Position numbers and translations under genes: made by a program. A stretch of DNA of 17,858 nucleotides. Origin: Clostridia bacterium (GTDB lineage Bacteria > Bacillota_A > Clostridia > Oscillospirales > CAG-272). Below the pieces are notes generated by a model that did no database searches, had not been told where the DNA came from, and saw nothing but the letters and a program-made list of their open reading frames with translations. Position 1 is the stretch's first letter. Every line of letters begins with the position of its first letter. This document shows positions 2,705 through 3,653 of the stretch, piece by piece. The stretch lies in the NCBI GenBank assembly GCA_017652965.1, contig JAGBZZ010000035.1, forward strand, positions 1-17,858, in the 5' to 3' direction.

Positions 2705-2739
2705 AAAAAGGAATATCGGCACATCTACGCCGATATTCC
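2705..2739 (-). terminator. Intrinsic terminator after the four-helix-bundle gene
   Basis: Perfect 11-bp stem: GGAATATCGGC (2710-2720) pairs with GCCGATATTCC (2729-2739) around an 8-base loop. Read on the minus strand the stem is followed by TTTTTG (2704-2709). It lies 31 bases after the stop codon at 2771 and before the ABC promoter, so it insulates the two units. Confidence 0.8.
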
Positions 2740-2770: not shown

Positions 2771-3124
2771 TCAGGAAAGGTTTTCTTTTGCCGTTTTGCA
2801 GGAGGAGATCAGCAGTCTGCGGATGTTGCCGCAAAGCCGCTCTAACCTCAGATAAGACTCGGAATCGACTCTTTTGGTTTCGTTTAACAGCTTCAGCCAG
2901 TAGCTCGTTTCGTTGGCTTCCTTCAGGGCGATCTCCAGCTTGGAAACGAAATCCTTTTTGCTTTGGGCGTATTGCGCCTCATGGATGTTGGCACCGACCG
3001 ATGTGCCGGCCCTTGCCAGCTGGTCGGTCATATAGGCGCTTTTGGGGGCTGATATGCCGTCGATCAGATGGACGACCGCTACAGCAAATTCGAAGGATAA
3101 GTCAAGCAGCTTGTTTTCGGACAT
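2771..3124 (-). CDS. Four-helix-bundle protein, S23 / 23S rRNA intervening-sequence family
   Basis: 117 residues, almost entirely helical. The central block QLARAGTSVGANIHEAQ (about 35-51) followed by SKKDFVSKLEIALKEANET and YWLKLL is the hallmark of the family first seen in 23S rRNA intervening sequences of Leptospira (TIGR02436 / PF05635). The fold is a four-helix bundle that oligomerises and is shared with Avd, the accessory protein of diversity-generating retroelements. The cellular role is unknown, and nucleic-acid binding is suspected for the family. The start at 3124 has an AAGGAGG site 8 bases upstream. The frame stays open upstream to 3310 through the hairpin array, so a longer 179-residue form cannot be excluded but lacks family support. 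No rRNA is nearby: the gene stands alone beside the array at 3171-3334 and a tRNA. Confidence 0.9.
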   Translation of the reverse strand: MSENKLLDLSFEFAVAVVHLIDGISAPKSAYMTDQLARAGTSVGANIHEAQYAQSKKDFVSKLEIALKEANETSYWLKLLNETKRVDSESYLRLERLCGNIRRLLISSCKTAKENLS

Positions 3125-3170
3125 TACGAGATCCTCCTTGACGCGTTTTGGGGTTCTGAAGAACAAAAAT

Positions 3171-3334
3171 GATATATCGCGAGGCGATATGATATACGGC
3201 GGCGCCGTATGATATATTTCCGCGTTGCGAAAATATGATATGATATCCGTTCCTCTATACGCATAGCGTATCTCATCCGCATAGCGGATATCATAGCGAA
3301 GATATATCACCCGGTCCGGCAGGAACGGATATCA
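3171..3334. repeat. Array of distinct 3-base-loop hairpins upstream of the four-helix-bundle gene
   Basis: Consecutive perfect or near-perfect hairpins: H1 ATATCGC-GAG-GCGATAT (3174-3190); H2 ATACGGC-GGC-GCCGTAT (3194-3210); H3 arms 3214-3223 and 3227-3236, 10 bp with one mismatch, loop GTT; H4 ATACGC-ATA-GCGTAT (3257-3271); H5 ATCCGC-ATA-GCGGAT (3275-3289). H1, H2 and H3 are each bounded by exactly GAT, and H4 and H5 are separated by CTC. All loops are 3 bases. Stem ends are AT-rich (ATAT) and stem tops are GC-rich and different in each unit. A 14-bp perfect long-range pairing (3241-3254 with 3321-3334) encloses H4, H5 and a degenerate tail. The structure forms on either strand. It lies just upstream of the start codon at 3124. 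Confidence 0.85.
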
Positions 3335-3338
3335 TTAC

Positions 3339-3375
3339 AAAAAACTCTCTCGGCCACCGGCCGAGAGAGTTTTTT
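3339..3375. terminator. Strong bidirectional terminator hairpin
   Basis: Perfect 17-bp stem, 3339-3355 with 3359-3375, loop ACC. The arms begin with A6 and end with T6, so it can terminate transcription in both directions. It separates the hairpin array from the tRNA-derived repeat. On the minus strand it follows directly after the duplicated tRNA 3' end, mirroring how the true tRNA is followed by its own terminator. Confidence 0.85.
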
Positions 3376-3378
3376 GCG

Positions 3379-3398
3379 TGGTGCCGGTGGCGGGGGTC
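3379..3398 (-). repeat. Duplicated 3' end of tRNA-Leu (attachment-site-like direct repeat)
   Basis: The 20 bases are identical to 3567-3586, which is the 3' end of tRNA-Leu including CCA, the acceptor strand and part of the T stem. Identity stops abruptly on both sides. Spacing between the two copies is 188 bases, in direct orientation. Direct repeats of a tRNA 3' end are the classical footprint of integration at a tRNA gene. No integrase is present in the window. Confidence 0.8.
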
Positions 3399-3537
3399 AT
3401 CTCACCGCGGCGTCAGGAAAGGCGAGGGGATTTCGCCTTTCCTCCGCGGCTCGGTCAGTCGCGGCTCTGACACGCCCCCGGCGTGTCATTCACTACCGCT
3501 CCCGTTCGCCCCCCAAAACCACAATGGCAAAAAAACA
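3399..3537. other. Structured non-coding segment between the two tRNA-end repeats
   Basis: No convincing gene. It contains an 11-bp hairpin (3415-3425 with 3433-3443, loop 7) nested within a CCGCGG/CCGCGG pairing (3405-3410 with 3444-3449), and a second perfect 9-bp hairpin TGACACGCC-CCC-GGCGTGTCA (3468-3488). An open reading frame crosses it on the plus strand and continues through the tRNA into htpG, which marks it as chance. It may be a small dispersed repeat, or an RNA read on the minus strand downstream of the tRNA terminator. This is inferred from structure only. Confidence 0.5.
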
Positions 3538-3566
3538 AAACGCCCCAAAAAGGGCGTTTCGTTTTT
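3528..3566 (-). terminator. Terminator of tRNA-Leu
   Basis: AAACGCCC (3538-3545) pairs with GGGCGTTT (3552-3559) around CAAAAA. On the minus strand the stem is followed by TGTTTTTTT. It starts 7 bases after the CCA end of the tRNA. The other side is also T-rich (GTTTTTT, 3561-3567), so it may work both ways. Confidence 0.85.
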
Positions 3567-3653
3567 TGGTGCCGGTGGCGGGGGTCGAACCCGCACGGTA
3601 TCGCTACCACCGGATTTTGAGTCCGGCACGTCTGCCAATTCCATCACACCGGC
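3567..3653 (-). tRNA. tRNA-Leu (anticodon CAA)
   Basis: 87 bases including an encoded CCA. Acceptor stem GCCGGTG (5' end at 3653) pairs with CACCGGC (3571-3577), discriminator A, CCA at 3567-3569. The anticodon stem CCGGA/TCCGG carries the 7-base loop CTCAAAA, giving anticodon CAA, which reads UUG. The long variable arm (about TGGTAGCGATACC) is typical of class II leucine tRNAs. The T arm GCGGG-TTCGACC-CCCGC is canonical. It has its own promoter and terminator and is transcribed away from htpG. Confidence 0.95.

Follow-up and report, generated by a model that had tools for sequence, protein, structure and literature searches.

A hairpin array upstream of a clostridial S23 gene: the probable left end of a tRNA-anchored mobile cassette

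Upstream of a small S23-family gene, in a 17,858-nt stretch of clostridial DNA that was analysed as a whole (the window), lies a regular row of short hairpins, which raises the question of what kind of genetic element it belongs to. S23 (PF05635) is a family for which we know of no settled function; its proteins share their fold with Avd of diversity-generating retroelements. The answer developed here, to which we assign a probability of about 0.68, is that a mobile cassette carrying S23 came in at the 3' end of a tRNA-Leu gene and that the array is its structured left end.

The hairpin row and its neighbours in the window

A first-pass annotation, made from the sequence alone, had described five triloop hairpins spaced by GAT and CTC and a 14-bp pairing that closes part of the row. 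All of its features are found in the sequence: the five hairpins and their spacers can be read directly, and the long pairing proves to be a perfect one of 15 bp (3240-3254 with 3321-3335). What it lacked were the tRNA 3' end, the terminator-like palindrome, the cargo gene of the relatives and the heptamer rule. The features of the locus are the following:

3567..3653, minus strand (the S23 strand): tRNA-Leu gene, anticodon CAA, the anchor (ARAGORN; Rfam RF00005 at 3570-3653)
3379..3398, minus strand: 20-nt exact copy of the tRNA 3' end (3567-3586), immediately preceding the palindrome (direct repeat D2)
3338..3376, minus strand: terminator-like palindrome with perfect 18-bp arms and a 3-nt loop, putative left end of the cassette (inverted repeat I1)
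3169..3335, minus strand: heptamer-hairpin array with conserved pairing (covariance model R1, 160.2 bits)
3321..3335, minus strand: one arm of the closing stem (inverted repeat search, I2)
3240..3254, minus strand: the other arm of the closing stem (inverted repeat search, I2)
3257-3271 and 3275-3289: triloop hairpins 4 and 5, with CTC between them
3214-3236: triloop hairpin 3, then GAT
3194-3210: triloop hairpin 2, then GAT
3174-3190: triloop hairpin 1, then GAT
3133-3138: ribosome-binding site AGGAGG of the S23 gene (sequence)
2771..3124, minus strand: S23 (23S_rRNA_IVP) gene, 117 aa (PF05635, TIGR02436, protein search, sequence)
2710..2739, minus strand: terminator-like hairpin downstream of S23 (sequence, by eye)

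Read on the minus strand, the locus presents tRNA-Leu(CAA), a short stretch ending in the copy of the tRNA end, the palindrome (3376-3338), the array (3335-3169) and S23 (3124-2771), behind which no cargo gene was recognised in the window. The assignment of the gene to S23, already made at first reading, is secured by profile matches to PF05635 (E 2.8e-24; 85.8 bits against a curated cut-off of 33.8) and TIGR02436 (95.2 bits against a cut-off of 24), and its nearest solved structure by sequence is 2rld. Within the array, a long stem around small hairpins is followed on the minus strand by three hairpins, with ATGATAT or ATATCAT as spacers, and the predicted minus-strand fold consists of these triloop hairpins and the long stem. 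Compared with dinucleotide shuffles, the fold of 3100-3360 has a z of -3.11 on the plus strand (0 of 200 shuffles as good) and -2.42 on the minus strand (3 of 200). The tRNA is the sole match of the window to Rfam at gathering thresholds, the array itself matching no Rfam family; its R1 score of 160.2 bits is not independent, the window being one of the 47 sequences behind that model.

Between tRNA-Leu and the 20-nt copy, within 3379-3586, lie about 170 nt full of inverted repeats, and the whole of 3379-3586 has the appearance of a mini-insertion flanked by repeats of the tRNA 3' end. Similar copies of tRNA ends precede some arrays at other loci.

Conservation of the array and of its tRNA anchor

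A protein search yielded 3537 S23 relatives. One scan of genome contigs, from which the best 80 loci were kept, led to Clostridia and related metagenome-assembled genomes (MAGs), many of them ruminant, and most of the 29 loci inspected show the same order as the window. An array upstream of S23 homologues was found to be the rule, directly adjacent in 70 of the 71 loci with at least 420 bases of upstream sequence (the 9 of the 80 with less being left out). L015 fails this adjacency test and gives a partial R1 match of 27.8 bits; the array of L042 is a weak match only. Apparent annotation artefacts were encountered in the form of long S23 frames in databases (129-192 aa among those inspected) that cross the array.

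From the 68 arrays extracted, 47 were aligned, giving a consensus of 53 pairs; in 22 of these both partners have changed, where shuffles give 11.7 ± 1.6. The stems covary, in keeping with the selection on structure suggested at first reading: double-change cells number 195 against 55.4 ± 8.0 (0 of 500 shuffles), the share of paired cells is 97.9% compared with 89.5 ± 0.3% in shuffles, and although kinship can lift sequences above such shuffles, slid structures score far below. Among the non-Watson-Crick cells on the S23-sense strand, G-U outnumbers A-C by 72 to 13 when four near-constant stem-base pairs are excluded and by 240 to 13 when they are included. The pairing is kept on the S23-sense strand, which is the tRNA-sense strand too.

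The spacers obey a heptamer rule, with ATGATAT in the first half of the array and its complement in the second. Among 40 arrays picked by hand, 35 contain a 6-mer that recurs in the first half and whose reverse complement recurs in the second, compared with 20 of 692 pairings between array families. A fold that pairs the heptamers across the two halves is improbable: for the one array considered, it is 12.2 kcal/mol worse than the best fold as RNA and 2.7 worse as DNA.

Searching eight MAGs with R1 produced 2-26 matches per MAG, of which 24 reach at least 100 bits; compared by eye, S23 stands behind 12 of these. The proposed tie of the array to S23 is weakened in that not every array requires the gene, half of the strong arrays having no S23 behind them. 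In the more divergent matches the architecture is retained while the spacers differ (ATGAAAT, GTGATAT, GCGATAT and GTGATGC among them). GCGATAT-spaced arrays also occur in series behind protein genes at two loci (L115:500-8500, which is G005:C14, and L116), each array preceding a lipoprotein-like or other gene. In two MAGs (L007 and L026), a shared insert of about 75 nt, also visible in protein P0089, splits the array between the long stem and the fourth hairpin.

The end of a tRNA or tmRNA, of 12 kinds in all, lies 30-59 nt ahead of 55 of the 70 arrays, and each of the 55 gaps measured contains a palindrome with arms of 8 bp or longer. For the other 15 arrays, no tRNA lies closer than 90 nt; about 7 of them start by eye with an apparent tRNA 3'-end fragment. 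A tRNA end lies no more than 350 nt upstream of 51 of 71 S23 genes as opposed to 8 of 522 other ORFs at these loci. The general order is that of a tRNA or tmRNA 3' end (CCA), a terminator-like palindrome, heptamer-spaced hairpins, S23 and, often, a variable cargo gene.

Such an arrangement might be read as coincidence at a tRNA hot spot, the array serving the host in regulation or insulation and S23 lying nearby often but without any relation to it. Many integrases are drawn to tRNA 3' ends, and integrase elements typically come with copies of the tRNA 3' end; such copies adjoin some arrays, the window's included, and arrays are also seen ahead of genes other than S23. We nonetheless consider the chance of this remote: array and S23 move between tRNAs as one piece, as described below, the heptamers stay with S23 at a great distance from tRNAs as well as in other phyla, and ARAGORN detected no tRNA at any of 30 S23 loci sampled from the same phylum.

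Cassettes, their cargo and the search for a mover

At 37 of the 80 loci a different gene begins within the S23 stop codon (ATGA). The cargo scan covered 55 of the 69 first ORFs behind S23, among which those without S23 overlap may be host genes, and identified, among others, methyltransferases (8), GNAT acetyltransferases (6), RrnaAD (5), nucleotidyltransferases (3) and the histidine phosphatase family (2); no recombinase occurs in the best 25 of the 57 cargo families of these ORFs. Defence genes were discarded as the usual cargo, the commonest PADLOC match in the 55 proteins being the methyltransferase-like mad2 (8).

Where loci agree in their cargo, the sequence they have in common runs from behind the tRNA up to a right-end motif that closes with CA; past this motif, a further palindrome often opens the next cassette. 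One such cassette, 99.0% identical over 1354 nt, lies at tRNA-His in one MAG and at tRNA-Tyr in another. At a tRNA-Val locus followed through five genomes of one genus, G006 carries an array-S23-cargo unit of about 1.0 kb between the CCA and a second cassette, which in the related G009 begins directly at the CCA; the remaining three genomes carry other structures, one with another S23. This locus is the single clean with/without comparison, its cut point being ambiguous within the shared CA and the A's that follow. Together, the tRNA-His/tRNA-Tyr copies and the tRNA-Val presence/absence give substance to the mobility of a palindromic element, which had been one of several possibilities raised by the first-pass annotation. 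At a tRNA-Leu locus, an S23 cassette is present in G006 and absent from G010 and G011; the contig ends there in G012, and G009 is without a full match.

Two related MAGs (L010 and L027) have the tRNA-Gly, array and S23 in common, with different genes behind S23, and their sequences diverge at the S23 stop, give or take a few bases. Carriage of close relatives by phages was dismissed, none being found in viral contigs. Two unannotated records of a phage collection from human faeces (L182, L183), both of which may represent host DNA, hold a more distant S23 accompanied by arrays of the GTGATAT and ATGAAAT types, in one case behind tRNA-Arg.

Candidate movers were sought in 12 cassette genomes; many of the genomes surveyed are MAGs. 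A reverse transcriptase (RVT_1) occurs in 0 of the 12 against 3 of 14 control rings, the MAGs being possibly incomplete; the link to diversity-generating retroelements hinted at by the shared fold was accordingly not borne out, and the retroelement reading is ruled out or at least weakened. The Y1 transposase (Y1_Tnp), found in 5 of 12, and serine recombinases, found in 9 of 12, are unlikely as common movers, the former being absent from G006, G009, G010, G011 and G012 of the genus with the tRNA-Val locus. Tyrosine recombinases occur in 11 of 12, and the recurrent ones inspected, a subset, resemble XerC/XerD by neighbourhood; in one genome, the pair inspected adjoins smpB and tmRNA and resembles XerC and XerD. 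No dedicated integrase, the integron integrase included, was recognised among the recombinases inspected in the 12 genomes, nor was a mover common to all of them found. The few cassette joints viewed by eye show CA and no GTT core.

These observations bear on a further reading, in which the array is a folded single-stranded DNA site of the attC or IS200/IS605 kind that serves as recombinase substrate, with S23 as passenger or accessory. The array lies between the terminator-like palindrome and the S23 start, and in many relatives a promoter-like sequence separates it from S23. Such a position suits a DNA site and makes transcription of the array putative, which we count against our preferred explanation. 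The left-end palindromes, the cleavage-like CA at the tRNA, the palindrome end and the right end, and the existence of S23-less cassettes point the same way, and selection on one strand fits single-stranded DNA equally well. On balance, however, we regard this reading as unlikely: the array stands 30-59 nt off the insertion point, some cassettes lack it altogether, the Y1 transposase is confined to 5 of 12 genomes and to none of the five in the genus with the with/without locus, no dedicated integrase was seen in the 12 genomes, and S23 elements within 23S rRNA and RNase P RNA, described below, point to RNA.

S23 and heptamers in other settings, and known systems

The association of S23 with tandem heptamers extends beyond the strong arrays. 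Of 33 S23 matches in eight MAGs, 12 have strong arrays, one lies in L108 and another sits where a contig ends; the remaining 19 were fetched, and tandem heptamers accompany 11 of these, whereas 10 of 465 control ORFs have them. Repeats of 6-mers whose complements recur too are found at all 19, yet also at 120 of the 465 control ORFs, and this test was set aside as unspecific. S23 relatives are present in 25 plasmid records, mostly of Cyanobacteria and also of Bernardetia, Treponema, Chlorohelix and Monoglobus (a second S23 place in two records is outside this count). Tandem heptamers flank S23 at 22 of the 25 loci (S23 starts of L178, L189 and L192 set by hand), the Monoglobus locus being marginally under the cut-off that 3 of the 25 miss; among lags of 3 to 15, only 14 reached the cut-off besides that of the heptamer. 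By shared 6-mers, the S23 flanks of these plasmid loci are inverted in 19 cases, direct in 5 and neither in 1. In an even sample of 199 genomes from the phylum to which G006 belongs, S23 occurs in 35, and loci from 30 of these show tandem heptamers in 21 cases (9 miss the cut-off) against 6 of 58 locus-end windows, with lag 14 reached at 8 loci and lag 11 at 2. L125 and L227 are one gene, so two samples share one locus.

Plasmid S23 genes often lie within clusters annotated as defence genes (L176, L181, L196, L178, L198, L199, L193, L197, L195): between cas2 and cas1, ahead of cas1, between hsdS and hsdR, behind drmD, between DUF1156 and Swt1-HEPN genes, and ahead of an N-6 DNA methylase.

Heptamers could in principle be a general genome background that lies beside S23 by chance. 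Short tandemly repeated repetitive (STRR) heptamers are known from cyanobacteria, and a 45-kb stretch of a Nostoc plasmid has 5 genes out of 36 that pass the cut-off, including S23 and its downstream neighbour; in 45 kb of a Bernardetia plasmid, 2 of 41 genes pass. Against this, the cut-off, which was fixed after the pattern had been seen, is reached by 3 of 1000 Markov shuffles and, in random stretches of L001-L080, by 8 of 2000; a stricter cut-off leaves only places beside S23 in both 45-kb stretches, and Treponema, Bernardetia and Chlorohelix loci pass as well. A mere background is hence highly improbable.

Among the 30 same-phylum matches, Rfam places 5 inside 23S rRNA (one, L231, a partial S23) and 2 inside RNase P RNA, with heptamers flanking S23 in both kinds of gene; one further match adjoins tmRNA on the opposite strand. 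The RNase P RNA copies (L222:1229-2003 and L220:1229-2003) are 98.8% identical and may represent one lineage. Their insert carries a 118-aa S23 ORF and is placed at the model's stem after ACCGCC, here taken as P12, a peripheral stem that the heptamers lengthen.

Our best reading of the array in the window is that of a hairpin-interleaved repeat end of an S23 element, kin to the intervening sequences (IVS) of 23S rRNA and here taking the form of a tRNA-anchored cassette. Thanks to its heptamer repeats, the inserted RNA would fold up by itself as a closed stem or a row of hairpins, and insertion into RNA genes may be tolerated because the repeats fold on their own, the host RNA staying functional while the insert is trimmed or ended. 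At the tRNA, the palindrome beside the CCA probably terminates the transcript. S23, as the element's own protein, would be the likely reader of the heptamer structure, and new cassettes may enter beside the CCA in integron-like fashion through a putative recombinase acting in trans.

More tentatively, at somewhat less than even odds for the proposal taken jointly, S23 and heptamer-repeat stems might define a single class of bacterial mobile elements with structured-RNA genes and operon gaps as its habitat. It would count the 23S IVS as members and the cyanobacterial STRR and trnL P6b heptamers as members or remnants; its form in gut Clostridia would be an integron-like gene capture at tRNA 3' ends, with S23 reading the heptamers. 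If true, this would link the 23S IVS with the heptamer repeats of cyanobacteria and with P12, the variable stem of RNase P RNA, and the clostridial cassette chains behind tRNA genes, with no integrase recognised, would represent a further route of gene exchange in gut bacteria. With a recurrent partner in the heptamers and a habitat in structured RNA genes, the function of S23 becomes directly testable. In the literature searched, which included few subscription papers, no paper connects S23 to cassettes at tRNA genes or, more broadly, to heptamers.

Among known systems, the 23S rRNA IVS share with the clostridial cassettes the protein family, the insertion into a stable-RNA gene, exemplified by the 5 of 30 same-phylum matches above, and heptameric repeats ahead of S23p in the Coxiella IVS, which PMC4990558 terms selfish and reports to be excised by RNase III. 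The clostridial insertion differs in lying behind the tRNA CCA and not within the mature RNA; its heptamers alternate with hairpins, all upstream of S23, and its cassettes stack, often with a variable cargo gene behind S23. The window copy is outside 23S rRNA, behind tRNA-Leu.

Cyanobacteria offer a second likeness: the P6b stem of Nostoc trnL, within a tRNA intron, consists of 7-nt repeats with side stem-loops (PMC4476775), and an STRR within RNase P RNA is indicated by the title of Vioque 1997, as cited in PMC2858038. The accessible part of PMC4476775 does not name S23, whereas here S23 lies inside or beside the repeats. REP/RAYT and IS200/IS605 systems likewise tie palindromes to one small protein and have solo copies, but S23 belongs to a four-helix bundle family (a 2rld relative) and is no HUH nuclease; for IS200/IS605, the presence of Y1_Tnp in only 5 of the 12 cassette genomes is a further difference.

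Integrons resemble the cassettes in their exchangeable chains with the newest member beside a fixed anchor, in the folded sites (attC in integrons) and in a short common core (here CA). They differ in that here the anchor is a tRNA 3' end, S23 recurs, the cassettes have promoter-like sequences of their own and, among the recombinases inspected in the 12 cassette genomes, an integron integrase was not recognised. With tRNA-targeting integrative elements, finally, the cassettes have in common the insertion at tRNA 3' ends and, at some copies such as that of the window, a repeat of the tRNA 3' end; unlike those elements, they measure about 1 kb, show no integrase of their own, stack upon one another, and employ a single array family at 12 kinds of tRNA or tmRNA.
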